DNA of 43,656 nucleotides from a virus: positions 1 to 43,656 of the IMG/VR virus record IMGVR_UViG_3300010388_000195; one strand, 5' to 3'. Numbering within the stretch: the first letter of the stretch is position 1; each line of letters begins with the position of its first letter. Positions 1,426-43,656 of this stretch are shown here, one piece after another. The notes under the pieces were generated by a model. The model was given only the letters and a program-made list of their open reading frames with translations. It was not told the origin of the DNA and searched no databases. Position numbers and translations under genes: made by a program.

Positions 1426-1579
1426 AGGTAGTGGGTGCATCAATTAGAGTAGGCGCGACGCCGGGGTGTGCAAGTAAATCGAGTTAGAAGGGGTAAAATG
1501 GTGAATTTCGCGTCTAAACCCCCTAGAAAGGCCGTAGAAGGCAGTTTACTTTGCCTATGTCCTACTATGGATTACCCCC

Positions 1580-1601
1580 TGCAAGGGCTTCCTAGGGCAT
1601 T
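1580..1601. repeat. Left arm of perfect 22-bp inverted repeat
   Basis: Exact reverse complement of 1923-1944 (core GCAAGGGCTTCCTAGGGCA). Flanking bases out to 1542 also match the right side imperfectly, so the whole arm is about 60 bases. The arms are over 320 bases apart and could form a cruciform or be bound by one dimeric protein. Confidence 0.85.
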
Positions 1602-1658
1602 CTAGACCATACTTTTTGCAAAAGTCATAAGTGCCTGTTTACTAGTGACTTACGAAAC

Positions 1659-1667
1659 AATATTATA
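1659..1667 (-). promoter_or_regulatory. TATAATATT promoter-like box inside origin-like region
   Basis: The minus strand reads CCTTTTATAATATTG. It is the same 9-base word found three times in the left-end array (123-174) and again lacks a TTGACA-like -35 at normal spacing. It lies about 230 bases upstream of the 1425-420 gene block and is the best visible promoter candidate for it, since the terminator at 2177-2202 should block read-through from the right. Confidence 0.35.
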
Positions 1668-1737
1668 AAAGGCCTGGCGCAAGCATGGGCCGTGCCAAGT
1701 CAGTGGTTTACTGTTAGAAAGTTTATAATACTTTAAA

Positions 1738-1866
1738 CTGTTAATCCAGGGTAAGGAAGTCATGTTAAGATCGTCTTAACCTGTAATCCTGGGTAATGTT
1801 ATCATGTTAAGGCCGCGTTAACCTGTAATCATTAGTAATGTAGTCATGTTAAAAGCCGTTTTTTAC
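1738..1866. repeat. Three tandem 42-43 bp iterons with dyads
   Basis: Units start at 1738, 1781 and 1823 with CTGTTAATC or CTGTAATC and continue to TCATGTTAA. Each ends in a dyad: GTTAAGA-TCG-TCTTAAC (1764-1780), GTTAA..TTAAC (1806-1822) and an AAAA-GCCG-TTTT type hairpin (1851-1862). The repeats sit at the centre of the nested palindrome. They may bind a replication initiator or repressor. Confidence 0.7.
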
Positions 1867-1922
1867 ATTTATTTAACACTTTCATAAGTCACTGATAATC
1901 AACAGTTTAGTCACACTCAAAA

Positions 1923-1944
1923 AATGCCCTAGGAAGCCCTTGCA
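1923..1944. repeat. Right arm of perfect 22-bp inverted repeat
   Basis: Exact reverse complement of 1580-1601. The similarity continues outward, ending with GGCAAAAGTAAACTG (1968-1982) against CAGTTTACTTTGCC (1542-1555), with one base of length difference. Confidence 0.85.
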
Positions 1945-2176
1945 GCATTTACAAGGGGGTAGGTAAGGGCAAAAGTAAACTGGGCGCAGTGGACCGGCCA
2001 GGCCTATCTAATGCGATTTTCGGGTTTTCTGTCTTATTTACTTCCTGGGGGTAGACTTGGCGCGGAGTCTGTACGGGTTACCCAGGCAGTGGGTAGAGAT
2101 CATAACGGGCCGACGGCAGTGCGGACGGCAGCTAATAGCAGCTTGGCCCAGACGCCGGGGTGTAGGCAGTAGGCAC

Positions 2177-2202
2177 AAAAAAAGGGCCACTAACGGCCCT
2201 TT
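2177..2202 (-). terminator. Rho-independent terminator after the 2248-2913 gene
   Basis: On the minus strand AAAGGGCC pairs with GGCCCTTT around a 6-base loop and runs into TTTTTTT followed by GTGCCTAC. It should stop leftward transcription before it enters the origin-like region. From here down to 1990 I see no gene. Confidence 0.85.
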
Positions 2203-2247
2203 GCAAAGTAGACTAGTACTAGGACTAGCGTGACTATGGCGCACACA

Positions 2248-2935: not shown

Positions 2936-3292
2936 TTAAGACAGTGGCACATTACCGGCTACTTCATCACGGGCCGACTGGAGTGCCTTATCGAAATCCT
3001 TGATGAAGGGCAGGAGTGACAGCACTTCATCATCAGTGCCTTTATATTGTGCGTTAACCTTGTCTTCGTACTTTGCAGCGTACTCGGCATTCTCTAGGAC
3101 AATCTGGGCCAAGTATACCAGGTTCCATGCAATGTTAAGCAAACCCTGCGGGCAGCTAGACTGGTCACGGGTTGCATTCAGAAATGCCAACCGAATGGAG
3201 TGGTCTGCACCTTCTACCTCCAGGTGCCGTGCCAGGTTCTCGGCAATGGTGTCAACTTTGGGTGTGCGTACTTTTGTGCGTTTGATTTTCAT
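2936..3292 (-). CDS. Hypothetical left-arm protein, 118 aa
   Basis: Unrecognised. The first 12 residues are strongly basic (MKIKRTKVRTPK), which suggests nucleic-acid binding, and the remainder is helical with a hydrophobic centre (LLNIAWNLVYLAQIVLENA). No signal peptide is seen. The start lies behind TTCCCACACACACACATG. It is followed after 22 bases by the 2913 gene in the same operon. Confidence 0.75.
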   Translation of the reverse strand: MKIKRTKVRTPKVDTIAENLARHLEVEGADHSIRLAFLNATRDQSSCPQGLLNIAWNLVYLAQIVLENAEYAAKYEDKVNAQYKGTDDEVLSLLPFIKDFDKALQSARDEVAGNVPLS

Positions 3293-3347
3293 GTGTGTGT
3301 GTGGGAAGGAAAGAGATTGTTTGGCGCGTACTGTGTGGGGTCAAGTC

Positions 3348-3803: not shown

Positions 3804-3888
3804 ATGGCGCATGAGCCTGGAGCCTGGAGGGATTGCACTCGCAGCTCGGCCCACTGGCCCGTGATCGTGCAGTGCAGCTTTATATGTA

Positions 3889-3941
3889 TGTGCGTGCGTG
3901 CGTGCGTGCGTATGTGTGTACCTACCTACCTACCTACCTAG
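3889..3941. repeat. Tetranucleotide microsatellites (TGCG)n and (CTAC)n
   Basis: About five copies of GTGC/TGCG are followed by TATGTGTG and then five copies of CTAC. Such perfect short tandem repeats are unusual in a phage. They lie in the non-coding leader between a terminator and the 3647 gene and may have arisen by slippage. Confidence 0.8.
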
Positions 3942-3945
3942 GCAC

Positions 3946-4214: not shown

Positions 4215-4484
4215 TTAACCTTCTGGTAGGTTTTCACTGATATACTTTTTTGCCTTATCAGTCATGGGGTAGTCACCTTCGTGATCGTACTCTTCCTCGT
4301 TAGTTACCTCGTCGTCGCAGTAGTTATTCGACGCAGCTTCTGCTACCAGTTCATCCCATTTTTCAGTGGGTAGAGTCCGGTATGCTTCCTGTGCGTCGTT
4401 TTCCGACATTGCGACTACCTGGTAGGACACATAAATCGTTTCCGAGATCGTGTATACCTTGGGTTCATTTTTGGGTTTGCTCAT
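4215..4484 (-). CDS. DpnD/PcfM-like small acidic protein, copy 1 (89 aa)
   Basis: The stretch YTISETIYVSYQVVAMSEND, then AQEAY, around residues 11-38 has the beta-strand/alanine-rich helix pattern of DpnD/PcfM-like proteins found in phages and plasmids (function unknown). It is clearly related to the product of 5557-5784, which has YVVTETITIEYRIPARSATD then AQESY. The rest is very acidic. The leader is CCCACACACACACACATG. Family assignment is from pattern only. Confidence 0.7.
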   Translation of the reverse strand: MSKPKNEPKVYTISETIYVSYQVVAMSENDAQEAYRTLPTEKWDELVAEAASNNYCDDEVTNEEEYDHEGDYPMTDKAKKYISENLPEG

Positions 4485-4502
4485 GTGTGTGTGTGTGGGA
4501 AA

Positions 4503-5131: not shown

Positions 5132-5539
5132 TTATTCTTTAATCGCTTCAGTGGCAAGCCGGTGCAGCTCGCACTCAAATCCAGACTGCACGCCCAGTGA
5201 CCATTCGTTACAGAGATCGTCTAGAAACTCTTCGATATGTTCTGCCTGTTTAGTGCCAGGCTTCACATCAAGCGCGTGAAGTACATCACCCAGGACTGAC
5301 TGTGGAGTAGGGCCGTCGGCCCATTCACCAGACAAGTCTGGCAACCCGTCGTACAGTCCCAGATCGTACCCTTCATCAATTGCCCGGAGTACTTCCCGTG
5401 CAGCTTTACGCTGGTCACCAGTGTGCCTTCCCCCAAACAAATATTGCTCCTGCCAGTTGGCATGATTCTCGCCCACCTTCATGCCCAGGTCGTAAGCGAA
5501 TCCCAAAGCGCGTACCATTAGTTTATCTAGTTTGCTCAT
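5132..5539 (-). CDS. Hypothetical left-arm protein, 135 aa
   Basis: Unrecognised helical protein. The N-terminus (MSKLDKLMVRALGFAYDLGM) forms an amphipathic helix, followed by a basic segment (GGRHTGDQRKAAREVLRAI) and an acidic C-terminal half. No catalytic motif is visible. The leader is TTTCCACACATACACACATG. It sits between two other CA-leader genes in the same orientation. Confidence 0.72.
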   Translation of the reverse strand: MSKLDKLMVRALGFAYDLGMKVGENHANWQEQYLFGGRHTGDQRKAAREVLRAIDEGYDLGLYDGLPDLSGEWADGPTPQSVLGDVLHALDVKPGTKQAEHIEEFLDDLCNEWSLGVQSGFECELHRLATEAIKE

Positions 5540-5556
5540 GTGTGTATGTGTGGAAA

Positions 5557-7263: not shown

Positions 7264-8865
7264 TCAGCCCTTGGTCTTGTTCAACTCGGCAACCAAGTCA
7301 TCAACCATTTGGATACGCTGACCGATCCAGTGCATACAGTTCGTAGCCATGCTATTGCCGATGGCCTTGTACCTATGTCCATCTGGCGCTGGCTTACCCT
7401 TCCAGGTGATGTCAGTCCACCCCTTCGGAAACCCCTGCAATGCCTCACACTCTGAAGGTAGAAGCCTTCGTACCGCCATAGGTGTGGCGATGTGTGGAAT
7501 CTGGTCACCCATGCTTGCCTTGAGCGTCGTGGTGGTCTCTGCATTGGGTTCGGCACCGGCATCCCTGCGAAGGTTGCCAGGTTGGAACGAGATGCATTCC
7601 TGCATGACCGCTGGCGCACCATGACCACCGGCAGTACGCAACGGGCAATGGAGATCGCCAGTGAGTGCTTGGTTGTACAGGTCAACGCCTTGGATGTTCT
7701 GGACGAATGGCACATTGCCACCACCCGTACCAAATCGTGCAGCTACAGTAGGTGCTACATCATGTGGGCCGGTGACACGGCTGTCATTCGGATGGTTCTC
7801 ATAGACCAACTGGCTAGGTGTTGCGACGAACTGGTCTTGGGTAGCAGCGACAGTGAAGGTCTTATCCTCATAGTGCAACATACCCGTACCGCCACGCTCT
7901 GTCGGCTTCACCTCTCCACCCTTTGCCCCGGAGTACTCACCACCGCATCGCACCTTGAAGGCGATGGGCGGTTGTACCGCATGAGGGCCACGGGCTACCA
8001 GCGCAGGAACTGAATCCGAATGCTGGATGAGAGGGTCGAACTTTGCGTTGATGCCCTGGGAGTAGGCAGCACGATCTAGGACTACGGGCCGGTTGTCTAC
8101 TCCTCCGTCTCCTCCGTTGGGCTGTCCTCCATCTCCTCCAGTGGCAATGAGGTTGTAATGTTCATCTCCTGCTGGGCCTCCTGTTCCTTTGTGCCACTTT
8201 CTGGTGACTGAGCCAGAGATTCCATCTGGTCGGCAGTTAATCCTGCTTGATGCATCAACGCCTGTAACAGAAGGGGGGGGAGTTCCTTTCCACGTAGTAG
8301 GCTTCGTCGTAGAACCCCCGAAGCTGCCCGGGCCGTCAAGAAGTACCGCTGCGGAATGTCGCCAGTCTCCAGAACTGCACCCAACGAGGAAAATTCTGCG
8401 CCGCCGCTGGGGAAGGCCGTAGAACTGTGAGTCCAGCACTCGGTAGCAGAACCCATACCCGCAGTCAGCCAACGCTGTGAGGAGGGCCGAAAAGTCTGAT
8501 CCAGACTTCGATGACAGGAGTCCTGGGACATTTTCGTACACAATCCACTTTGGCTTAAGTCTCTTAACAAGTCCGAAATAGATGAGGGATAAGTTACCAC
8601 GTGGGTCATCCATTCCTTCTCGCATACCGGCAACTGAGAAGGCTTGGCAAGGTGGGCCTCCGACCAGAACATCAACTGTTCCTGGTTCGATGTCCCACTG
8701 TTTGTAGTTTTCGAGGTTTCCATAATTTTTTACTGTTGGGTAGCGCGTCTTCAATACCTCCGACGGGAACTCCTCAATCTCTGCGAACCCCACTGGAGTC
8801 CAGCCGAGTTTCTCCCAAGCCACGGATGCAGCTTCGATGCCGGAGCATACCGAAAAGTATCGCAT
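7264..8865 (-). CDS. DNA cytosine-C5 methyltransferase, 533 aa
   Basis: Transfers methyl from S-adenosylmethionine to C5 of cytosine. Motif I FSVCSGIEAAS (residues 4-14), motif IV GGPPCQAFS with catalytic Cys73, motif VI ENV (111-113), motif VIII QRRRR (153-157), and a C-terminal RLLPSECEALQGFP and AIGNSM (motifs IX/X) are all visible in order. The target-recognition region (about 165-460) is unusually long and has loosely repeated units such as APTVAARFGTGGGNVPFV. The start ATG overlaps the previous stop (TAATG) with AAGGAGGA upstream. It probably protects phage DNA from host restriction; no partner endonuclease is seen. A shadow frame at 8097-8723 is not a gene. Confidence 0.95.
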   Translation of the reverse strand: MRYFSVCSGIEAASVAWEKLGWTPVGFAEIEEFPSEVLKTRYPTVKNYGNLENYKQWDIEPGTVDVLVGGPPCQAFSVAGMREGMDDPRGNLSLIYFGLVKRLKPKWIVYENVPGLLSSKSGSDFSALLTALADCGYGFCYRVLDSQFYGLPQRRRRIFLVGCSSGDWRHSAAVLLDGPGSFGGSTTKPTTWKGTPPPSVTGVDASSRINCRPDGISGSVTRKWHKGTGGPAGDEHYNLIATGGDGGQPNGGDGGVDNRPVVLDRAAYSQGINAKFDPLIQHSDSVPALVARGPHAVQPPIAFKVRCGGEYSGAKGGEVKPTERGGTGMLHYEDKTFTVAATQDQFVATPSQLVYENHPNDSRVTGPHDVAPTVAARFGTGGGNVPFVQNIQGVDLYNQALTGDLHCPLRTAGGHGAPAVMQECISFQPGNLRRDAGAEPNAETTTTLKASMGDQIPHIATPMAVRRLLPSECEALQGFPKGWTDITWKGKPAPDGHRYKAIGNSMATNCMHWIGQRIQMVDDLVAELNKTKG

Positions 8866-9869: not shown

Positions 9870-10346
9870 TTATTCCGGCTTGGGTGGGTCAACTGGCTCG
9901 GCATCGATAATCAAACTCTTGGTATCCAGCAACTTATTGATGTCGTCCGCAGAGATACGAAGTTCTGCTTTGATGTTCACAGTAGGGGTAGGGTCTACCA
10001 GTTTGTCCAACTTATCGATGGCAATGGCAGCTGAAAGCATCAGTTGACCAAGGGGGATTCCGTCTACCTCATTCTCAAGTCGCTCGGTTGCCTTGTCTAC
10101 AAACGATGCAAGGCGGTGTGCGGTCTTGCGCTTGAACGCCAGGACATCGAGTTGTCCTGTATCCTGTAAGTTATTACGAATCTCCCCGACGATCCGTGGC
10201 TCGACTGCGGTCATCTTGGCTGTGTCGGCAGGGGCTGTGCCTTGCTTCAGCAGTTGCTCGATACGCTTCACAGTATGCTTGGGCAACTTCTTGCCGGCCT
10301 CTGGGTTCGTGCCATCCAATCGTTCAAACTTCGGGTCTGTATCCAT
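9870..10346 (-). CDS. Putative DNA-binding (HTH) protein, 158 aa
   Basis: Residues about 20-60 (LPKHTVKRIEQLLKQGTAPA then TAKMTAVEPRIVGEIRNNL) fit a helix-turn-helix. The middle is helical and the C-terminus is Pro/Asp-rich. It is the first gene of the minus operon and faces the divergent plus operon. Its position fits a regulator or a small-terminase-like protein, but neither is shown. The ATG at 10346 is only about 6 bases from a -10-like TATACT, so the transcript may be leaderless. Confidence 0.7.
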   Translation of the reverse strand: MDTDPKFERLDGTNPEAGKKLPKHTVKRIEQLLKQGTAPADTAKMTAVEPRIVGEIRNNLQDTGQLDVLAFKRKTAHRLASFVDKATERLENEVDGIPLGQLMLSAAIAIDKLDKLVDPTPTVNIKAELRISADDINKLLDTKSLIIDAEPVDPPKPE

Positions 10347-10399
10347 TAAATAAGTATACACAGTTGACCCAGTTAATCAAGGGTGGTAACCCAATAGTT
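10347..10399. promoter_or_regulatory. Divergent promoter region
   Basis: On the minus strand TTGATT and TATACT are separated by 16 bases and the -10 ends 6 bases before the ATG of the 9870-10346 gene, so initiation would be at or next to the start codon. On the plus strand TTGACC lies at 10364-10369, but no good -10 follows at normal spacing. Both operons must start here or be fed from elsewhere. Confidence 0.45.
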
Positions 10400-11666: not shown

Positions 11667-12308
11667 ATGACACACGGCACTTGGATTCCCAAGGCCGTAT
11701 TGGAACGGGTGGACATTCCTTTGTCTGCCCGTGTCCTTTACGGACTAATCGATGCCCTCGATGGTGACGAGGGATGCTATGCTTCCAACGGGTGGATCGC
11801 CACGAACCTGGCGTTGACCCCCAGACAGGTACAGAACCTCCTCAAGATGCTGGTCGATGCCGGCCTTGTGGTACGCATCGAGACCGATGGGAAACGCATC
11901 CTGCGGACGGTGGAGAAGCAAGCACTTGTGGCGCTGAAGGGGGATGCAGTCAATTTCGTCCCCCCCACGAAGCCCATTTCATCCCCCCCACGAAGTAGAC
12001 TTCGTACAGATAATACAGAGGATAACAAAGAGGATAATAATAACCCCTTACCCCTTCCTCACAGTCCTATGTTCCGTAGGGTCTGGGACGAGTGGGTTGC
12101 CTATCGTCGAGCGTCGAAGAAGAAGTTGTCGGAGTTAGCCAAGCAGAAGCAGCTCGCTATGCTGGCTGGGCTGACCGAAGCGGAAGCCATCGAGTGCATC
12201 AACCGATCCATCTCCAACGACTGGCAAGGACTGTTCCCAGAGAAGCAGAAGAACAGTAAACCCTTTTCCAAAATCTTAACCAGAGATGACCACGCCAATG
12301 GATTCTGA
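11667..12308 (+). CDS. Winged-helix replication protein, 213 aa
   Basis: The N-terminal 90 residues have a winged HTH (YASNGWIATNLALTPRQVQN then LLKMLVDAGLV), a fold used by phage replication initiators and DnaD/primosomal proteins. A Pro/Asn-rich low-complexity linker (about 110-135) leads to a C-terminal helical domain (residues 145-200) with GLTEAEAIECINRSISNDWQ, typical of DnaD-type C-termini. It is followed, with a 23-base overlap, by a helicase loader. It probably binds the origin or recruits the helicase; the origin itself is not identified here. Confidence 0.78.
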   Translation: MTHGTWIPKAVLERVDIPLSARVLYGLIDALDGDEGCYASNGWIATNLALTPRQVQNLLKMLVDAGLVVRIETDGKRILRTVEKQALVALKGDAVNFVPPTKPISSPPRSRLRTDNTEDNKEDNNNPLPLPHSPMFRRVWDEWVAYRRASKKKLSELAKQKQLAMLAGLTEAEAIECINRSISNDWQGLFPEKQKNSKPFSKILTRDDHANGF

Positions 12309-12993
12309 CCGCCCATTCTGCCGGGGATGCAAGGGACAGGTAACCGCTGTCCTCGACACGAACAAGAACCAGTTGCTGAACTTCTACACCTGTGAGCCTT
12401 GCGCTGTCAGCGGGAAGACCAGCCACTTCACCCACCCCTTTGACTACACGGAGATGTTCGCTGGCAAGGGCTACAAGTTCATCAAGCATCACCCAGACCA
12501 TCCCAAGGGCTTCTACGATACAGACCTCGCCCTGCTCCCACAGAGCCTCCAGGTCGCCAGCCAATGGTCTCCGTCCACCAAGGTAAGCATCCTGCTCCAC
12601 GGGACGACTGGGACGGGTAAGACGAGAACCGCTTGGCTCATCTTCAATCGACTGTGGATGCTGAACTTCCCGGCACGGGCGGTCTGGTTGCCTATGCGGA
12701 AGTTGGAAGCGTCCATCGAGAAGGGCTTTGAAGACCACAAGCACGGCAAGGTGCTGGACTTCTTCTGCACCGTTCCGCTTCTCGCCTTCGACGATCTGGG
12801 GAAAGAGCGACTGACCCCACGTCTTGAAGCCGACCTGTTCGCCATCCTGGATGAACGCACCAGCAATCTCCGACCCACAATCATCACGACCAACTACAAT
12901 GGAACAACCCTCCTCGACAGGTTCAACAACAAGGAAACAGGTGAAGCCTTCCTGCGCCGACTCCGTGAATACTTCCACCCAGTTCACTCTTGA
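12286..12993 (+). CDS. DnaC-like helicase loader ATPase, 235 aa
   Basis: Loads the replicative helicase. A zinc-binding N-terminus (C12, C15, C36, C39) is followed by an AAA+ ATPase: Walker A GTTGTGKT (106-113), Walker B LLAFDDLG (165-172), sensor-like IITTNYNG (199-206) and an arginine-rich RRLREYF near the end. Length matches DnaC/IstB-type loaders. No phage helicase is present, so it presumably hijacks the host DnaB. The start at 12286 overlaps the upstream gene; ATG at 12298 is an alternative. Confidence 0.88.
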   Translation: MTTPMDSDRPFCRGCKGQVTAVLDTNKNQLLNFYTCEPCAVSGKTSHFTHPFDYTEMFAGKGYKFIKHHPDHPKGFYDTDLALLPQSLQVASQWSPSTKVSILLHGTTGTGKTRTAWLIFNRLWMLNFPARAVWLPMRKLEASIEKGFEDHKHGKVLDFFCTVPLLAFDDLGKERLTPRLEADLFAILDERTSNLRPTIITTNYNGTTLLDRFNNKETGEAFLRRLREYFHPVHS

Positions 12994-16954: not shown

Positions 16955-17703
16955 GCGAACAATACGACATCGTCGCAATGGGCGACAACCACGGCGACCT
17001 TGCTTGCGAAGATACTCTCGACGCAATTATGGAGTTCGTCTCCACCGTAAAACCAAAGTACCGGGTACACCTTGGCGACAACTGGGACTTCCGATGGGCA
17101 AGGCGCGGGGTGGACAAGTCCTCCTCCGAAGCCAAGCAGGGTCTTGAGGACGATCTCCAGGCGGGTATCAGTTGGATTAAGCGATACAAGCCCACCCATT
17201 TCCTCTTCGGAAACCACGACGACAGAATCCGGCAAATCATCCACAGCACCGACTCCATCAAGGACAAGGATGATATGCAGAAACTCCAAGACCTTATGAT
17301 GCGTACGCTCCGTGATGTCGGATGCAAGGTCATCAAGCCCTATAACGTGAAGAAAGGTCGTGTGCGTATCGGCCCTATCACCTTCATCCACGGCTTCTCC
17401 CACGGGCAGAACGCCTTGCTCAAGGATGCCCGTATCTTCGGTGTCCCCGGTGGTGGCTTCTGTATGGGTCACCTACACCGCCTTGAGCAGTTGAACATCG
17501 AAGCCTTCGACGGAGGTGCAGCTTGGCTCTGTGGCTGGGCCGGTCGGCAGGAGGATACTGACTACGCCTTCCGTATGCCTGGAAGCCTACGCTGGCAGAA
17601 CGGCTTTATGTACTTCAAGGTCGATGGAGACAACTACATCGGCAAGCAAGCCCACCGCTTCGGTGACGGCTGGTATTTCCCCAACAAAGAACTCCACAAA
17701 TGA
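16951..17703 (+). CDS. Calcineurin-like metallophosphoesterase, 250 aa
   Basis: All five metal-binding blocks are present: MGDNHGD (10-16), LGDNWD (41-46), GNHD (87-90), FIHGFSH (145-151) and GHLH (173-176). The family hydrolyses phosphomonoesters or diesters, including DNA, with two metal ions. In a recombination operon it could act as a nuclease (SbcD/Mre11-like) or remove phosphates, but it lacks the Mre11 capping domain. Overlaps its neighbours by 4 bases on both sides. Confidence 0.85.
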   Translation: MSEQYDIVAMGDNHGDLACEDTLDAIMEFVSTVKPKYRVHLGDNWDFRWARRGVDKSSSEAKQGLEDDLQAGISWIKRYKPTHFLFGNHDDRIRQIIHSTDSIKDKDDMQKLQDLMMRTLRDVGCKVIKPYNVKKGRVRIGPITFIHGFSHGQNALLKDARIFGVPGGGFCMGHLHRLEQLNIEAFDGGAAWLCGWAGRQEDTDYAFRMPGSLRWQNGFMYFKVDGDNYIGKQAHRFGDGWYFPNKELHK

Positions 17704-17990
17704 ACGAACCAGAAGAACTAGAATCACGCGCCAAGTCGTTAGGTATGGATATCGGACGACTGCGTGAAGTACTCAAGGCCGGCTTCACAGAGCCGTCATA
17801 CGATCTGATGCCCAAGTCCAACTTCAAGGACAGCCCCAATCGTAACTTGCATAATCCCAAGGGAGGCTACTGGTACGTCAAGTACACGCAGGACGGCATC
17901 CGCAAGTCTATGCAGCTCTCCCGTGACATCGAGGAGGCTCGTAAGATGCGTGACGAGTTCTTCGCCTCCATCAACTACGGCAAGAAATGA
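17700..17990 (+). CDS. Putative AP2/integrase-arm-like DNA-binding protein, 96 aa
   Basis: The C-terminal 45 residues (GGYWYVKYTQDGIRKSMQLS then RDIEEARKMRDEFFASI) look like the three-strand-plus-helix fold of AP2 or integrase arm-binding domains, which read DNA through a beta-sheet. No integrase catalytic part is present. Overlaps both neighbours by 4 bases. Confidence 0.6.
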   Translation: MNEPEELESRAKSLGMDIGRLREVLKAGFTEPSYDLMPKSNFKDSPNRNLHNPKGGYWYVKYTQDGIRKSMQLSRDIEEARKMRDEFFASINYGKK

Positions 17991-19437: not shown

Positions 19438-20110
19438 TTACTTTGTCACGGGCTTTATCCCAGAGAACCCACAGACCAAACGACAAAGCGATGCCGATGG
19501 CTGTGAGGACGATGGGTAGGAAGTAGGGAGAGCCTTGGATGACCGGGATAGACCCAGCCACGGTGGACAGGAAGATGAGGGTAGCGCCAGTCTTCCACGA
19601 CAGGAAGGCACAGACGACAGCCCCCAGGACGAACATCCCGCCAGCCAGCATAGTCCAGAAATTGCGGTCAGCGTCGGTCTTGACCTTCTCCACCTCTTGG
19701 GCGAGCTGCTCGTTGCGTAGTTTAAGGGCTTTAATCTCCGCAAGATTGCGGACATTGTCGGACTCCATCTTATCCCACATCTTGTTTACTTCTGCTTGTA
19801 GACCCTTGGCGTAGGCAATCTGAGCCTTGTAAGCCTCTGGGTCGCCCTTGGAAGCCCGTTCACGGGCGAAGGCGATGTCAGCCTCAGACGGGGCAGGAAG
19901 ATAAGCCAGAGCCACCTTTCCTTCAGCCTTTACCACCTCCGGCTCGTCAGCCCTCTCCACCGCCACGGTTACGGCAGCCGCCGCCCGTGCTTCAGTGGTA
20001 TCAATCTTGTCCCCCAGTTTACTAACATTGGCTGGATCGGTAGCCGATACCGGGGGCTTGTCCGTAGTCACACAGGAAGCCAAGAAGACGATGCAGAATA
20101 GGTACTTCAT
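19406..20110 (-). CDS. Spanin-like lipoprotein with C-terminal membrane spans, 234 aa
   Basis: The N-terminus has a lipoprotein signal with canonical lipobox LASC (cysteine 13), so it would be anchored by lipid, probably in the outer membrane. Residues about 95-150 form a coiled coil (KALKLRNEQLAQEVEKVKTD). Three hydrophobic segments follow at about 151-171, 174-190 and 195-216. Outer-membrane anchor, periplasmic coil and inner-membrane spans resemble a u-spanin, which fuses the two membranes at lysis. Normal u-spanins have one C-terminal span, so this is enlarged. The gene lies next to the holin candidate. Confidence 0.6.
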   Translation of the reverse strand: MKYLFCIVFLASCVTTDKPPVSATDPANVSKLGDKIDTTEARAAAAVTVAVERADEPEVVKAEGKVALAYLPAPSEADIAFARERASKGDPEAYKAQIAYAKGLQAEVNKMWDKMESDNVRNLAEIKALKLRNEQLAQEVEKVKTDADRNFWTMLAGGMFVLGAVVCAFLSWKTGATLIFLSTVAGSIPVIQGSPYFLPIVLTAIGIALSFGLWVLWDKARDKVNESSSPSQPD

Positions 20111-23100
20111 TTGTTGCGGTAGCGATTGGCGGTCTCGGATTCGGCTTGGCGCTGGATGGTCGTCTTCTGGCTCTGGAGGTAGGTGTTGGGGGTCATCTGA
20201 CGCATCACCTCTCCCTGCAACTTCTCAGCCTCTTCCTTGGTCTTCGGGGCTTTGGAGGTTGTCTGCCCACGGAGACGCTGTTCCTGGACGAGCATATTGT
20301 TGTACATAGCCACGGCATTCTCCGTGCGGTACAGTTCCTGTCCGTTCACACCATACAGTCGGTAGACATATCTGGGCTTACCATAGTTATCCAAGCCTTG
20401 GTAGACGGCGTGGAGTTGATTGCCCAGTTCGGTCTTCCAGACATCATTGATGGCTCGCATCACTTCCTGCCCTGCTCGCATCTCACGGTTGAGATACTTG
20501 TTGAGATCGGGGGCGGCTGCACGGGCTTCTGGAGAACCAAGAGCCAAGGCTACACGGGCATTGCCTTCGGCTTGCTGGACAAGTGGGCCGGTCTGCTGTT
20601 GAGCGTTCAACGTCTGGGTGACGATGGGCTTGCGGTCAAGGATGCGACGGACGACCAATCGATTATCCCCGGCAACTGGCAAGCCAGCAGGGTCAACCCC
20701 TAGACTGCCACGCAGGATGTTGCCGATGTCAAGTTCTGGGGTATTAGAACGAAGTGCCGTAGCCAAGGCATTGGCATCCTCCACCTCACGCTCCTTTGCA
20801 CGAGTCTCGATGTCACGACGCAGTTGCTCGGCTTGCAGCTTGGCTTCATTGTCACGACGCTCCTGTTCAAGTTTCTGTTTCTCACGCAGTTTCTCGGCTG
20901 CCTCCTTGTTCTTGCGTTCTTCTTCCAACAGGCGATTCCAGTCGTCATCATACTTCTTCTTGTCCGCATCGATACGACGCTGTTCGGCTTCAATACGACG
21001 TTGTTCGGCAATCTGGTTCTTCTTGTCGATGCGAGCCTGGTTCTTGGCATCTTGATCGACTAGGCGCTGGAAGTCCGCTTCGTACTTAGCCTTTTCCTTT
21101 TCGATACGCTTTTGTTCCTTTTCGTATACGGCAAGTGCTTCGGCATCTGCCTTGGCTTGGGCTTCGGCTTGCTTCTTCCATTCCTTCTGTTGAGCCTGTG
21201 TTTCCTTGAGCAAGGCGGCTTCAGCCATTGTGCGTTCCTTCTCGACCTTCTTCCGGGCTGCTTCTTCCGTGGCATCATTGAGAGCCTTCTCACGGGCAAC
21301 ACGGGCCGCCTCATCCTTGATTACCTTCTCGGCATACTGACGGGCATCAGCCATATTCTGAGCATCAAGGATGGCATCGACGGAAGCCTTCTGAGCCTCT
21401 TCGATGGTTCGTGCGTTGTTGGGTACGTTCTCACCATCAACATAGATGTCGTACGTTCTCCCGTTGAACTCGTGAATATATGTATTCGGGATGTTCGGGT
21501 GAACGTATGATGCCGTAAGGGTGTTGGCTGGGTTAACCTTTAGGAAGTTGGCGCGAAGGCCGGCAATGACCTCCTTGCTACGCAAAGCCCAAGCACCAGG
21601 TGCCATATTGAACTGACCATAGATGGTCGCAGTCTGGGACATTTGGGTGGTAGTCCCGGTCTGGGACAACTCGCCCATCGAGGAGACGGACAGGTTCTCG
21701 TACGGGAACGCAAGACCACGGACGGCTTGATTGGTGAAGGTCGTAGGGTTGACCACGACACGCCCATTGCGAACCGTCATCCCGTGAGCAGCACGAAGAA
21801 CCGTCAAGCGAGCCTCACCACGCGCCCGATCTCCACGACCAAGGCTGATAGCGGAAGGTTCGATGATGGCACTAGCCGGAGCCTGGAGGGTGGAAGGCGA
21901 AATCGGCTCACCGCTGTTGTATCGCTGCATCCACTCGTTAGCCATCGTGTAGAACTCCTTGTCGTCGTTGAACAACTCACGGATGGTCGTCGGGTTGAGT
22001 TCACGTCCGTTGACATCCTTGAGGTAGGTGAAACTACCGTCTTCATTATAAACACGGACACCCTCGGAGAAGATGATGTTCTTGTTGTCGTGGAATGCGG
22101 TGACGTTGAAGACCTTGGTCGTGAGGTTGTTTCTCGGAGTATACAGACCCTTCTTCGTAGGGGACAGTTTCTCGTACTCGCTCTCGGAGATGACCCGGTT
22201 CGGTTCGGTGTTGTGCCAGTACTGGACTTGAGTCTCGAAGTACAGCGGGACGAACACTCGGTCAGAGACGTACTGGAAGCCGTCCTTCATATAGTAACGA
22301 CCTTCGGAATGCGTGTCCTTGCCGTGCGAGAACAGGTTCACATAGCGACCAGTGATGATAGGACGCTCGCCACCTTGCGCCATAATCTGAGCCATCATCA
22401 CCATATTGTTGCGGATGGTGTCTGGCAGACCTTGCGAATTGGCTAGTGCGTTGATTTCAGCTGCCGTTGGCTTACCCCAGATTGCCGTCTTAATTCCACC
22501 CTTTGGGCCAGCCTTATCATTCGTGAACGTAAGACCACGCTGGGACTCCGGTACATTGGTAAGCGTATCCAGGACGACTTGTGCGTGACCACCAATGACC
22601 ACGCCAACGGGAGGAAGTGTGGATGGGTTTACGACAGGCGAAGGAACAGGGGTTGTCGGAGCAGGAGCAACTGGCTGGATCGGAACTGCCGTAGGCGTAG
22701 GTGCAGGAGCAGTAGGCGTAGGTGCAGCTGGCTGAACTGGAGCAGGAGGGGGCGGTGGGATTGGAGTCCCAGCCGGAGTCTGCGTTGCTGGCTTCGGAGT
22801 AGGCGTGACAGGGGTCGGCGCTGGAGCAGTAGGGGCTGGTGTAGCGGGAGCAGGGGTAGCCGTGCCAGTAGGAGCAGGAGTAGGGGCAGGAGTGCCAGCA
22901 GGAGGCGGGTAGACACCGGGAACGATGGGTTGACCATTGTAGGTGTTAATCGTCGTAGTACCAGGTGCTGGCTGACCAGCCGTAGGTGCAGGAGTAGGAG
23001 CAGTCGGCTTGCCTTGAGGCTTGGGCGGGTCGATGCCTGGGATTGGAGTACCCGTAGATTGGTCGGTGAACCAAGGAAGACCAGCAGAGTTGAGCAACTC

Positions 23101-26100
23101 AGCCTGTTGGGTATGGTTCATCTCAGAGAAGTTTAGTTCTGTGAGACGGGGAGAACCCTTACCGCCAGTCATCCGATAGATGGCATCGTAGAGGCTATTG
23201 ACCACAGGGTCACGGACGATTTCCCCACGGCTATTTAGGAAGAAGCCACGGACAGTACCATCGGACTGCTTGATGAAACGCATCCCAGACTCACGCAGGG
23301 ACTGCACCATCGATGCTGTGTACTGACGAGGGAAGATGCCGATCTGTGGGTCGAACATCGAAGCGAACTGCAAACGCACGTTATCCGTGCTGAGTACATC
23401 GTACAGGCTACGCTCACCGACCATAATGCGACGCAGGGTATCAAACGCCCCAGAGCCACGCACATTGGTCAGACCCTTGTTCGGGCCGACACCACCGTAA
23501 CCGATGGGCTTTGTGGAGTCGATTGTAGCCATCCACCAAGCCATAGCCTCACGGGTGAAGCGTTCGATTGGCTGGCTTACGCCTGTGGACTCATACTGCT
23601 TCTGGGCGGCTGCAAGTTCATCACGGAAACGCTTACCGGCCTCAAGCGTAAGGCTGGCTGCATAGGCATCGAAGAACGCAGTGCGAGCAGCTGGGGACAT
23701 ACGACCACCCTCTGATGCAGAGTTCCACAGCACCTTGTTGAGTTGAGGGATGACGGACTTGACCGCATCGTGGTGGAGCAACGCTTCCCAGGCTTCGTGG
23801 TTGACGGTGAAAGCGTCTGCCTTGCTGATGTCGAAGTACACGCTACGAGCCTGTGGGCCGGACTCGATGTACATACCCTCACGAACCATCGTCAACTGAT
23901 TGCCAGCAGCGTTGGTACGGGTTTCTCCCTTACGGAAGGTGATGGGAGCATCGACATTCCGGGAAGCCTCCGACAACTGGGCGCGGAGTTGATTGCCTTC
24001 TGCGGAATAGACCTGGAGTTTGACGTTCTCGTTGTTGAGATCGTTCTTCAGACGCTCAAGGACTACGGATGTCTGTTTGCCAGCGGCCTTTAGGTTAGCC
24101 TCTTCAACGGAGATTTGACCGCTGATACGCTGGATGAGACCGACGGTTGCCTTGGCGCGACGCTCGGATTCGTTGACCTTGGTCTGGAGGTCATCACGCT
24201 TTACGATGTTCTGCTTCTTGGCTTCGATTTCCTTTACGCTCTTCTCGGCGTGGATTGCAGCTTGGGTAGGAGTCATACCCATTGCGATGGCTTCATCACG
24301 GATACGGGCTACATCCTTCGGGTCTGCATTGACCGTGTAGTTGGCGATCTGCATCTCCTCCGGTGTGACGGCAAAGACACGACCACCCGTGGCATCATAG
24401 GAGCGACGGAAGGAATCAGCACGACGCAGATACTCGGCAAAGTCCTTTGAGCCATTGAGCCATTCACGCACCTTGGCGGCCTGTTCTGGCTGGAGACTTT
24501 CAAGGATACCAAGTGATTCAGCGATAACATCCTTGCCACGAAGAGCCTCATTGCCCTTCTGCGTGAAGCGATTGGCTGTCTGGGTGACTCGATTGAGTCC
24601 AGACATCGAGATGGACGCAGCAGCCCCGATGCCGAAGCCTGTCCCTGCGGCTGCTTGGTCATTAGCCCAAGCCATAGTCATACCGACTGTACCACCGTGA
24701 ATCACGTCATCAATGGCTACGTGGAAACCGGCCTGTGCAGCCGCATCAAACCCGGACTCAGACATCCAGTTGAGCATATTCATCTCGGACTCGATGGCTG
24801 CTCGTTGGGCTACATCCTGCGTAAGACCAAGTTCCTTACGGGTTGCGTTCAAGGCAGACTGGATCGCAGAACCGCTGACTCGTTCTCCAGAAAATGCAGC
24901 CTTGGCAACACGACGCTGAACCTTGAAGTAAGTCTCAGCCTTAGCGCCAGCAACGGTAAGCACGTCTGGACGCATCATCCCTCCAATACCAAAGATGGCA
25001 AGACCAGCACCGTAGCCCCAGTCGCCACCCTGCACGGCACTCCAAGTTCCGATAGCACCGCCAGCAGCGACGGTAGTCCAGCCAGAGGTCAATTGGGCTG
25101 GCTGTAGTGCAATGAGGCGACGGAGAGACCATTTACCCAAGGCTCGTTCCTTACCGCCTTCAGCCATAAACTCACCCATCTTACGGACACCTTTGCCAAG
25201 AACCTCGCCAGGTGCGCCAACGATGTAGTTTCCAACGAAACCGCTGATGACACGCTTAGGGCCGGTCATACCAGGCATAGCCTTCTTGACCTCGGCGGCG
25301 TGGCTGATGGCATCTGCATTCAACTTATTAATGCGGGTGACCATATCATCCGACAGACCAGATGTGTTGATCGTGGTGCGAATCTTCTCGGATGCCTTCT
25401 TCCCTGCATTTGTAAGCATATCTTCTCCAGACTGAGATAGGCTGATGAGCATAGCCTCCTCTTCTGTGAGTGTGCGACCAGTGGCACGATACACGTCGTC
25501 GATGACCTTCGTGATGCTGTCCTTGGGGATGGACTTGTTGACGTTCTTGATTTCCGTTAGGATTGCCTTGCCCTCTTGGACAAGAGCAGCTCCACGGGCT
25601 GTGATTTCAGCGGGAAGGGTAGCCTTACCAGCCAAGCCAAGAGCCTTGCCCAACATACCCGCGCCACCAGCGACAAGGGTAATCGGGTCATAAATCATTG
25701 AAGCCTGTTCTGCCAACTTCTCGTCACCGTATGCGGTACGAGCCTCCTTCGCCCGATTGGGCATACCAAGGGCATCATACGCACGGGCTACGACATTGTC
25801 GTGAGAGCCAGTAACATTACGGTAGTTGCTCGACCAAGTCTTGATGGCTGCGTCGATTTCCTCGTCGCTCTTGTTCTCCCAGAAGTCATCCGTGAAAGCA
25901 CCGAAGGCTGCCTTTACAGCGGAGATTCCAGCACCAGCAACCTTGGTCTGACCCGTGTATCTGTCGCCAAGAGCCTCATTGATGAACAGGAACGAATTGG
26001 GGTCTGTAGAGTCGCTGACGAAGTGCTTGAAGTTGACCGTAGACTGAAGGACGCCAGAACCAAACGAAGCCAACTTCTCGAATGGCTTGCCCGGAATGAA

Positions 26101-27204
26101 AGCACCATCTTCACGGAGAGCCTGGAGTTCTGCGATTGCGGACAGGAACTCTTGGTTGCTCGGCTCGTTTGCATTCGTGTAAGCATCCAGTGTTCTCATC
26201 AACGCCTCTGAATTGCCCATACGCTGGACTTCCTTGAGGCGCTCAATCGGACGACGGGTCGCAGCGGAAGCACGGACGATTACCTGTTGAGCCTTCTCAC
26301 GCAGTGCCGAATCGTTGCGGTAACGCTGGGATAGGTACTCATCAGCACCGCTGAACGGATTGACCGCATCAACGAACCCGGCAATAGCCTCGACACCATC
26401 CTGCACGAACACGGCAGCTGCATTGAACCCGTCACCCATAATGGAGGTACTCTGGGTGGAGTGGAAGCGAGCAGCGGCTCTGAAGGCATCACGCTGTTCT
26501 TGGATGGAAAGACCCTGCAAGTAGTCCGGCCCTTGCTGTGAAACGACACGACCAACTTCAAGTTGATTGTCTACCGGGGCGATGGACTTACGGATACGCG
26601 CCACAAGGCTAGTGCCGATGGAACGCTTCTGTTCGGCATATCCAGGCTGGGTCAGTTCAGCGATAACTTCGGATGCTACGGCTGTCGGTACTTTGTTGTT
26701 AGGGTTGATGACAAACTCCTGTAGTTCGTCGTCGCTCATACCGAATGCCTTCGGATGACGAACACCCTTCAGCAAGGACTCCTCCATCTTCAACTTGGAG
26801 AACGGGAGCAACTTGTTCGCTACGATCTGGGCATTGTGTTCGGACTCCGGGATTTTGACCTTAAGCACACCCCAAGCAGCATCATTGACTTGCTTGGTAC
26901 GCTCCTCGGAGTTTGCGGACAACTGCGTGGCAGGAATGCCGAAGATAGCCATCGAGGTATCATTGTTGTAGATACCCACGCTGGTGGCTTTATCCCAGAG
27001 CCAAGAGTTCATATCACGAACACGGGTAATCTTGGTCACCTCGTATTCGGGAGTGCCTGGGATGTTCTCCGGCAACTCAGCGCCCTTGCCCATCCAGTTA
27101 CCCTTATCGTCTCTATACAACCACGGTTGGGTCGCTAGATCGATTACGGGTGCTTCTGGTTGAGGGGTTGTTGGGGCAGTGAGTGCGGGTGTTTCTTCAG
27201 CCAT
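20107..27204 (-). CDS. Giant internal virion / ejection protein candidate, 2365 aa
   Basis: Longest gene in the window. The organisation is a large N-terminal helical region (1-1380) with Gly/Ala-rich hydrophobic patches (about 710-745 and 825-865) and a ProAlaThr-rich linker (about 1385-1525). After a beta-rich region (about 1530-1900) it is followed by a long Lys/Glu/Ala coiled coil (about 1950-2150) and a polar C-terminus. Such giant proteins directly before two other virion proteins resemble podovirus internal core proteins that are injected with the DNA. I saw no intact lysozyme, protease or polymerase motif. It might also be a large polyvalent protein delivering enzymatic domains. Confidence 0.7.
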   Translation of the reverse strand: MAEETPALTAPTTPQPEAPVIDLATQPWLYRDDKGNWMGKGAELPENIPGTPEYEVTKITRVRDMNSWLWDKATSVGIYNNDTSMAIFGIPATQLSANSEERTKQVNDAAWGVLKVKIPESEHNAQIVANKLLPFSKLKMEESLLKGVRHPKAFGMSDDELQEFVINPNNKVPTAVASEVIAELTQPGYAEQKRSIGTSLVARIRKSIAPVDNQLEVGRVVSQQGPDYLQGLSIQEQRDAFRAAARFHSTQSTSIMGDGFNAAAVFVQDGVEAIAGFVDAVNPFSGADEYLSQRYRNDSALREKAQQVIVRASAATRRPIERLKEVQRMGNSEALMRTLDAYTNANEPSNQEFLSAIAELQALREDGAFIPGKPFEKLASFGSGVLQSTVNFKHFVSDSTDPNSFLFINEALGDRYTGQTKVAGAGISAVKAAFGAFTDDFWENKSDEEIDAAIKTWSSNYRNVTGSHDNVVARAYDALGMPNRAKEARTAYGDEKLAEQASMIYDPITLVAGGAGMLGKALGLAGKATLPAEITARGAALVQEGKAILTEIKNVNKSIPKDSITKVIDDVYRATGRTLTEEEAMLISLSQSGEDMLTNAGKKASEKIRTTINTSGLSDDMVTRINKLNADAISHAAEVKKAMPGMTGPKRVISGFVGNYIVGAPGEVLGKGVRKMGEFMAEGGKERALGKWSLRRLIALQPAQLTSGWTTVAAGGAIGTWSAVQGGDWGYGAGLAIFGIGGMMRPDVLTVAGAKAETYFKVQRRVAKAAFSGERVSGSAIQSALNATRKELGLTQDVAQRAAIESEMNMLNWMSESGFDAAAQAGFHVAIDDVIHGGTVGMTMAWANDQAAAGTGFGIGAAASISMSGLNRVTQTANRFTQKGNEALRGKDVIAESLGILESLQPEQAAKVREWLNGSKDFAEYLRRADSFRRSYDATGGRVFAVTPEEMQIANYTVNADPKDVARIRDEAIAMGMTPTQAAIHAEKSVKEIEAKKQNIVKRDDLQTKVNESERRAKATVGLIQRISGQISVEEANLKAAGKQTSVVLERLKNDLNNENVKLQVYSAEGNQLRAQLSEASRNVDAPITFRKGETRTNAAGNQLTMVREGMYIESGPQARSVYFDISKADAFTVNHEAWEALLHHDAVKSVIPQLNKVLWNSASEGGRMSPAARTAFFDAYAASLTLEAGKRFRDELAAAQKQYESTGVSQPIERFTREAMAWWMATIDSTKPIGYGGVGPNKGLTNVRGSGAFDTLRRIMVGERSLYDVLSTDNVRLQFASMFDPQIGIFPRQYTASMVQSLRESGMRFIKQSDGTVRGFFLNSRGEIVRDPVVNSLYDAIYRMTGGKGSPRLTELNFSEMNHTQQAELLNSAGLPWFTDQSTGTPIPGIDPPKPQGKPTAPTPAPTAGQPAPGTTTINTYNGQPIVPGVYPPPAGTPAPTPAPTGTATPAPATPAPTAPAPTPVTPTPKPATQTPAGTPIPPPPPAPVQPAAPTPTAPAPTPTAVPIQPVAPAPTTPVPSPVVNPSTLPPVGVVIGGHAQVVLDTLTNVPESQRGLTFTNDKAGPKGGIKTAIWGKPTAAEINALANSQGLPDTIRNNMVMMAQIMAQGGERPIITGRYVNLFSHGKDTHSEGRYYMKDGFQYVSDRVFVPLYFETQVQYWHNTEPNRVISESEYEKLSPTKKGLYTPRNNLTTKVFNVTAFHDNKNIIFSEGVRVYNEDGSFTYLKDVNGRELNPTTIRELFNDDKEFYTMANEWMQRYNSGEPISPSTLQAPASAIIEPSAISLGRGDRARGEARLTVLRAAHGMTVRNGRVVVNPTTFTNQAVRGLAFPYENLSVSSMGELSQTGTTTQMSQTATIYGQFNMAPGAWALRSKEVIAGLRANFLKVNPANTLTASYVHPNIPNTYIHEFNGRTYDIYVDGENVPNNARTIEEAQKASVDAILDAQNMADARQYAEKVIKDEAARVAREKALNDATEEAARKKVEKERTMAEAALLKETQAQQKEWKKQAEAQAKADAEALAVYEKEQKRIEKEKAKYEADFQRLVDQDAKNQARIDKKNQIAEQRRIEAEQRRIDADKKKYDDDWNRLLEEERKNKEAAEKLREKQKLEQERRDNEAKLQAEQLRRDIETRAKEREVEDANALATALRSNTPELDIGNILRGSLGVDPAGLPVAGDNRLVVRRILDRKPIVTQTLNAQQQTGPLVQQAEGNARVALALGSPEARAAAPDLNKYLNREMRAGQEVMRAINDVWKTELGNQLHAVYQGLDNYGKPRYVYRLYGVNGQELYRTENAVAMYNNMLVQEQRLRGQTTSKAPKTKEEAEKLQGEVMRQMTPNTYLQSQKTTIQRQAESETANRYRNK

Positions 27205-43555: not shown

Positions 43556-43656
43556 AGGTGTATGGGTAGACCCGCTTGACCCCCCCCCCCCCGCCCCCGG
43601 GGCGCTCCCCCCCGCCGGGGGCCGCGGCCGGGCGCGCCCGGCGGGGCCGGGCCACC
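43556..43656. repeat. Right, degraded copy of 101-bp terminal repeat
   Basis: Aligns gap-free to 1-101. Of 17 differences, seven are A to C and eight are T to G relative to the left copy; none goes the other way. This bias and the extreme G+C content suggest sequencing error at a contig end rather than real divergence. It should not be used as biological sequence. Confidence 0.85.

Follow-up and report, generated by a model that had tools for sequence, protein, structure and literature searches.

A conserved non-coding element with 27-bp dyad units and an IHF site in uncultivated phages, distinct from the likely main replication origin

Genome context

Is the nested inverted repeat found in a gene-free stretch of the genome of an uncultivated phage an origin of replication and, if not, what is it? 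The window analysed here is the whole record of the phage (IMG/VR IMGVR_UViG_3300010388_000195; 43,656 bases). The preliminary description had seen in this locus a candidate phage origin bound by the protein encoded at 11667-12308.

The ends of the record overlap by about 94 bases, the right-hand copy containing errors, and the molecule therefore probably assembles as a circle. The direct repeats involved (1-94 and 43556-43649; 86%) lie in a C-rich, G-quadruplex-like stretch which relatives conserve, and it is here that the assembly breaks; a circular or a terminally redundant genome is probable. The cumulative GC skew has its minimum at about 19-21 kb and its maximum at about 41 kb, and neither coincides with the palindrome or with the initiator-gene site described below. 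The closest TerL among named phages is 30% identical (Phage C75C1). The most A+T-rich site of the genome is a second non-coding stretch (104-178, up to 80% A+T), in which a repeat resembling AATATTATATTC occurs about three times. CA-repeat leaders (CCCACACACACACATG) take the place of a Shine-Dalgarno sequence directly before leftward gene starts, and similar leaders occur in relatives. At 3881-3945, microsatellites with the tetranucleotides (TGCG)n and (TACC)n immediately precede terminators, and are kept in several relatives. The 2365-aa ORF at 20107-27204 has no Pfam match at E 0.01.

Anatomy of the repeat

The coordinates of the features discussed are collected in Table 1.

Table 1. Features of the window, with positions counted from its first base
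Feature	Position	Strand	Remarks
Non-coding element, type I form	1426-2180		between 39-aa leftward membrane ORF (1306-1425) and leftward terminator
Left outer arm of inverted repeat	1542-1601	+	includes perfect 23-mer 1579-1601
Right outer arm of inverted repeat	1923-1982	-
Left inner arm	1636-1657	+	22 nt, 82%
Right inner arm	1880-1901	-
27-bp dyad unit 1	1742-1768	-	PSSM 34.2
27-bp dyad unit 2	1784-1810	-	PSSM 39.5; 42 bp from unit 1
27-bp dyad unit 3	1826-1852	-	PSSM 37.0; 42 bp from unit 2
Two GTTAA-N7-TTAAC dyads joining units	1764-1780, 1806-1822 (within 1764-1822)		subgroup-specific
Conserved T-rich tract (TTTTTTACA..TTTAACA)	1859-1880	+
Exact IHF consensus AATCAACAGTTTA	1897-1909	+	one of two matches in the 43.7-kb window
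Six TTTACT boxes	1473-, 1545+, 1638+, 1707+, 1974-, 2037+ (1473-2042)		18-fold denser than in the rest of the genome
Intrinsic-terminator-like hairpin	2181-2202	-	predicted to stop leftward transcription before the element
O-like replication initiator gene	11667-12308	+	HTH_36; PHROG 678
Tandem 23-bp iterons inside initiator gene (n=2)	11948-11993	+	proposed core of main, lambda-like origin
A+T-rich stretch adjoining the intragenic iterons	12000-12045	+	67%
DnaC-like helicase loader	12286-12993	+	follows O-like gene
96-aa protein, predicted stand-alone lambda-Int arm-type/AP2-like DNA-binding domain	17700-17990	+	candidate element binder
CA-repeat leaders	824-849, 1279-1304, 2907-2932, 3286-3311, 4476-4501, 5531-5556

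The nested inverted repeat is genuine. Its local score (75) exceeds the maximum reached in 500 dinucleotide shuffles (54), and is the highest of all 475-bp windows genome-wide; exact inverted repeats of at least 12 nt within 500 bp are otherwise restricted to a short palindrome at 8247-8258 and to the low-quality right end. The outer arms lie where the preliminary description had put them, and pair over 24 nt at 75% (1542-1565/1959-1982) and over 23 nt at 100% (1579-1601/1923-1945), the perfect stretch being one base longer than the 22 nt first reported. The inner arms, previously given as 1644-1657 and 1880-1893, extend further than that. The three repeats with dyads, which start at 1742, 1784 and 1826 and are thus spaced by 42 bp, were also found, yet they do not occupy the centre of the structure as had been thought: the palindrome centre (about 1762-1768) falls where the first repeat ends, and the array lies beside it, reaching right to about 1867. 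A 27-bp dyad unit describes the repeat better than a 42-bp iteron does. The spacer is gene-free and A+T-rich, as claimed, with 65% A+T in 1600-1925 and 74% in 1850-1925 versus 47% in the whole genome, and the terminator reported to face leftward transcription has its counterpart in the hairpin spanning 2202-2181. A possible ORF of 18 aa, hydrophobic (MCAIVTLVLVLVYFAKGR; 2190-2246), has its stop codon inside this hairpin, and similar short hydrophobic ORFs are found 5' of the terminator in relatives.

Components conserved among relatives

Searches of IMG/VR with TerL and the initiator yielded more than 100 related loci, and nhmmer models built from the element recovered it in nine other distinct phages, so that ten elements, the window's included, could be compared. 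Collection-wide scans for the T-rich tract and two forms of the unit added no contigs to those already collected, and the element had no match among named phages. Elements of type I have p2248-like neighbours (the window, hereafter W, G005/G008, G006 and G007), those of type II are of the other form (G001, G002, G003, G004, L036 and L043).

A common core is shared by all ten elements, and consists of one to four copies of the 27-bp dyad unit (consensus TAATCATGAGTTCATTACCCAGGATTA), the T-rich tract and the exact IHF consensus. Units scoring above 26 with the PSSM occur in every element and nowhere else, and not even a unit-like site scoring above 18 was found outside the elements in any genome examined. 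Units are spaced by 42-43 bp in each multi-copy element, with the exception of part of G006 (44, 34, 42), and their orientation relative to the flanks varies among phages. The T-rich tract is nearly invariant (TTTTTACAC.TTTTTACA), and the IHF consensus (WATCAANNNNTTR) resides at the corresponding right-hand position in nine elements, and in the left arm in L017. An exact DnaA-box consensus, TTWTNCACA, is found inside 7 of the 10 elements; those of the window, G005/G008 and G006 have no match. TTTACT boxes in both orientations are enriched 6- to 23-fold, and the 600 bp densest in them are the element itself in W, G001, G002, G003 and G004, not in G006. The boxes were considered as -35 hexamers, and discarded because a consistent -10 was not seen downstream when contexts were inspected by eye. 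Likewise, a sigma-54-like TGGCACG-N4-TTGC was spotted by eye in L017 only and is not conserved, and CtrA-like TTAA-N7-TTAA dyads are absent from most relatives. A reading as a mobile element or MITE was also dismissed, as the element is single-copy and its interior is conserved across 10 phages.

The long palindrome is strong in one subgroup only. Folding as ssDNA gave z-scores of -6.6 in the window, -8.6 in L083 and -7.7 in L042, values which might suggest that the functional product is a large structured RNA or a single-stranded DNA hairpin. The other seven elements, however, score only between -1 and -3, the covariation term computed by RNAalifold on four type I elements is unfavourable (+3.06), Rfam gave no match, and the boxes recur in both orientations, as is expected of sites for proteins. 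A conserved RNA or hairpin was hence rejected, and we consider such a product highly improbable. Since strong folding is not universal and covariation is unfavourable, the arms are read as inverted arrays of protein-binding boxes, and not as a hairpin needed for function.

Conservation of the locus in close relatives, on which the preliminary description had made its reading depend, is incomplete. Next to the ten phages carrying it, the element is undetectable in two close relatives with near-full-length contigs, G010 (43.5 kb) and G012 (42.0 kb), and in a shorter contig (3300042544_002473), bearing in mind that the records may be incomplete and that a strongly diverged element could escape detection. 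Inspection of the matching intergenic regions of G010 and G012 showed other, unrelated repeats. As judged from these two near-full-length relatives, members of the group can do without the element.

The initiator gene and the proposed main origin

An initiator-type protein and a helicase loader are encoded elsewhere in the genome, as anticipated, by an O-like and a DnaC-like gene, respectively. The O-like gene contains its own repeats. Tandem repeats are found at the same place of the gene, along with an A+T-rich stretch, in all of the about 25 relatives compared. They fall into two kinds with no relation to each other: the repeats of type A (TTTCRTCCCCCCCACGAA) have a period of 23 bp, those of type B (CCCTCACGCCAAnnTGTCGTGA) one of 22 bp. 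Because the periods are not multiples of 3, and copies are read in different frames, the repeat is a feature of the DNA rather than a protein repeat. In 12 phages the O iterons reside in the O gene only, save for isolated matches with 4 mismatches (one in the window, at 593). The site at 11948-12045 combines iterons inside the initiator gene, an adjacent A+T-rich stretch and a loader gene following the initiator, as lambda-type intragenic origins do. Judged from these features, the primary lytic origin is more likely a lambda-like site of this kind, located about 10 kb from the palindrome.

Does the O-like protein serve the palindrome as well? All combinations of O-iteron type and palindrome type were observed (W, A/I; G007, B/I; G003, A/II; G002, B/II), and the 27-bp unit is unchanged across phages with unrelated O iterons. 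Since the two types assort independently and the unit stays constant, and since the three relatives without a detectable element all keep the O gene and its iterons, the palindrome is probably not a target of the O-like protein. O iterons were sought in the palindrome element, and are not shared by it. The claim that the locus is an origin bound by the 11667-12308 protein is not supported, in view of the conserved iterons of the gene itself, of the independent assortment, and of the relatives in which the protein is not accompanied by a detectable element. The anatomy of the locus does resemble an origin, and more closely than the preliminary description could show, with an IHF site in 10 of 10 elements, a DnaA box in 7 of 10, phased units, a T-rich tract and shielding by a terminator, and initiator and loader genes are present; what lacks support is the notion of a primary, O-dependent origin. 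That the palindrome is not this origin we hold with high confidence, and the opposite reading, with the O-like protein bound to identical units despite unrelated iterons in its own gene, is very unlikely.

A candidate binding protein

Two proteins stand out among those found in element-bearing phages and absent from G010 and G012, encoded at 4215-4484 and 17700-17990. The former (p4215, 89 aa) co-occurs with the element, yet is acidic and not DNA-binding-like, and was set aside; p2248, the neighbour of the element, was discarded as a common binder as it is found with type I elements only. The AlphaFold2 model of the 17700-17990 protein (mean pLDDT 71.5; 84-89 in the C-terminal part) features strands and a C-terminal helix. 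The relevant Foldseek matches were to the arm-binding domain of lambda integrase (2wcc, 1kjk, 1z1b; probability 0.97-0.99, E 0.1-0.3) and also to AP2 domains, and Pfam gave a sub-threshold hit to Arm-DNA-bind_3 (E 0.03). One homologue matches an HNH-endonuclease family (E 1.8e-4). Protein and element are both present in 7 phages and both absent in 3 (Fisher p 0.008), but the association is confounded by clade, and the protein, as modelled, is therefore a lead only as the putative binder of the element.

Discussion

Comparison of the ten elements suggests that region 1426-2180 is best read as a conserved cis-acting nucleoprotein site, plausibly bent by IHF. We are inclined, at somewhat less than even confidence, to regard this site as an accessory replicator, the primary origin residing in the O-like gene. 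The binding events, the strand opening and the role in replication that follow are inferred. The 27-bp dyad units, about four helical turns apart on one helix face, would be the target of a dimeric DNA-binding protein, which would not be the O-like initiator but perhaps a host protein or the arm-type protein. IHF would bend the DNA beside the T-rich tract, and the flanking TTTACT boxes, laid out as palindrome arms in this subgroup, may be bound by a second factor. The assembly could act as a second, plasmid-like origin or as a replication enhancer, opening the T-rich tract, and DnaA might help in relatives endowed with DnaA boxes. Some facts weigh against an accessory replicator: the binder is a candidate only, a Rep_3 initiator was not found in the window, the DnaA-box consensus has no match in the window's copy, two near-full-length relatives do without the element, and the element sits directly upstream of the start of a leftward operon, where regulatory sites are expected.

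This last position gives weight to the strongest rival, in which the element controls transcription, the dyads being operators, and the whole an IHF-bent enhancer or silencer that also supplies the leftward operon 1425-420 with its promoter. Control regions of phages commonly combine IHF with dyad operators for dimeric proteins. As the terminator precedes them, genes 1306-1425, 866-1285 and 420-830 must rely on a promoter within the element or close to it; a -10-like TATAAT is present at 1724, a promoter-like match at 1638-1666, and the downstream operon is small and variable. However, a strong conserved leftward promoter was not found, the units are about 320 bp away from the first gene, and DnaA boxes and T-rich tract would be left unexplained. 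We deem control of the operon possible, though on balance rather unlikely. Distinctly more doubtful is a nucleoprotein site for packaging, partition or recombination (pac/cosB-like, parS-like or attP-like). IHF acts in lambda cosB, P1 parS and attP, the genome encodes a predicted DNA-binding protein resembling a stand-alone Int arm, and the orientation of the units relative to the flanks differs among phages, as noted. Yet the genome is devoid of the tyrosine or serine recombinase that would go with an attP or invertible site, of the ParB that would go with parS, and of the protelomerase that would go with N15-like telomeres (tos/telRL), none of which was found. The 9870-10361 protein, which has a weak HTH-like N-terminus, is possibly the small terminase subunit, distant from TerL; it is present in nearly all relatives with coverage, those without the element included. 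TerL relatives were not found in GTDB genomes.

Origins of iteron plasmids are marked by helically phased repeats, an A+T-rich tract, an IHF site and DnaA boxes. As in pSC101, R6K and P1 oriR, phased direct repeats, an A+T-rich tract and an IHF site are found in the element, along with DnaA boxes in most relatives, the window's copy lacking the latter. In contrast to these origins, a Rep_3-type initiator was not found, no rep gene is shared by all elements in their flanks, and the element has only 1-4 units with an unusual spacing of 42-43 bp. Similarity to IHF-dependent phage regions, such as the Mu operator/enhancer and lambda attP, lies in the coupling of IHF with dyad or arm-type sites, and in the Int-arm-like protein encoded; unlike those systems, no integrase or resolvase was found in the genome, and the ORFs that were scanned included no recognisable transposase. 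The lambda O protein binds four 19-bp iterons (PMC3985674). The window's O-like gene resembles the lambda-type origin in having tandem iterons followed by an A+T-rich stretch, with the helicase loader next; the likeness concerns the site at about 12 kb, while the palindrome units measure 27 bp, follow each other every 42 bp, lie in non-coding DNA and bear no relation to it in sequence. In P1, oriL has been postulated to lie within repL (PMC9948254), and SPP1 has both oriL and oriR, the initiator G38P being described as bound to both (PMC5615212). An origin proposed to lie within the initiator gene, together with a second replicator in non-coding DNA, would correspond to the arrangement in P1, but a RepA-like protein was not found in this phage; SPP1 uses one initiator for its two origins, whereas here the two sites share no iterons. 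Phages with two origins, as P1 and SPP1, and plasmid origins with IHF, DnaA and iterons are thus already known; a described element with this combination was not found in a narrow literature search.

The element represents a previously uncharacterised cis element of uncultivated phages, defined by comparison and separated from the likely main origin. Should it act as a second replicator, two different origins would be in use in these phages, as in P1, and phages could exchange the type of element without exchanging the initiator. The 17700-17990 protein is a testable candidate for an integrase-arm DNA-binding protein standing alone, without a recombinase. It is conceivable, if quite improbable, that the phages hold two unrelated, independently recombining replicators, one being lambda-like and located in the initiator gene, the other an origin with IHF, DnaA and 27-bp units served by the free-standing lambda-integrase arm-like protein. 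If this were true, a DNA-binding module of integrases would have been reused as an origin- or enhancer-binding protein.
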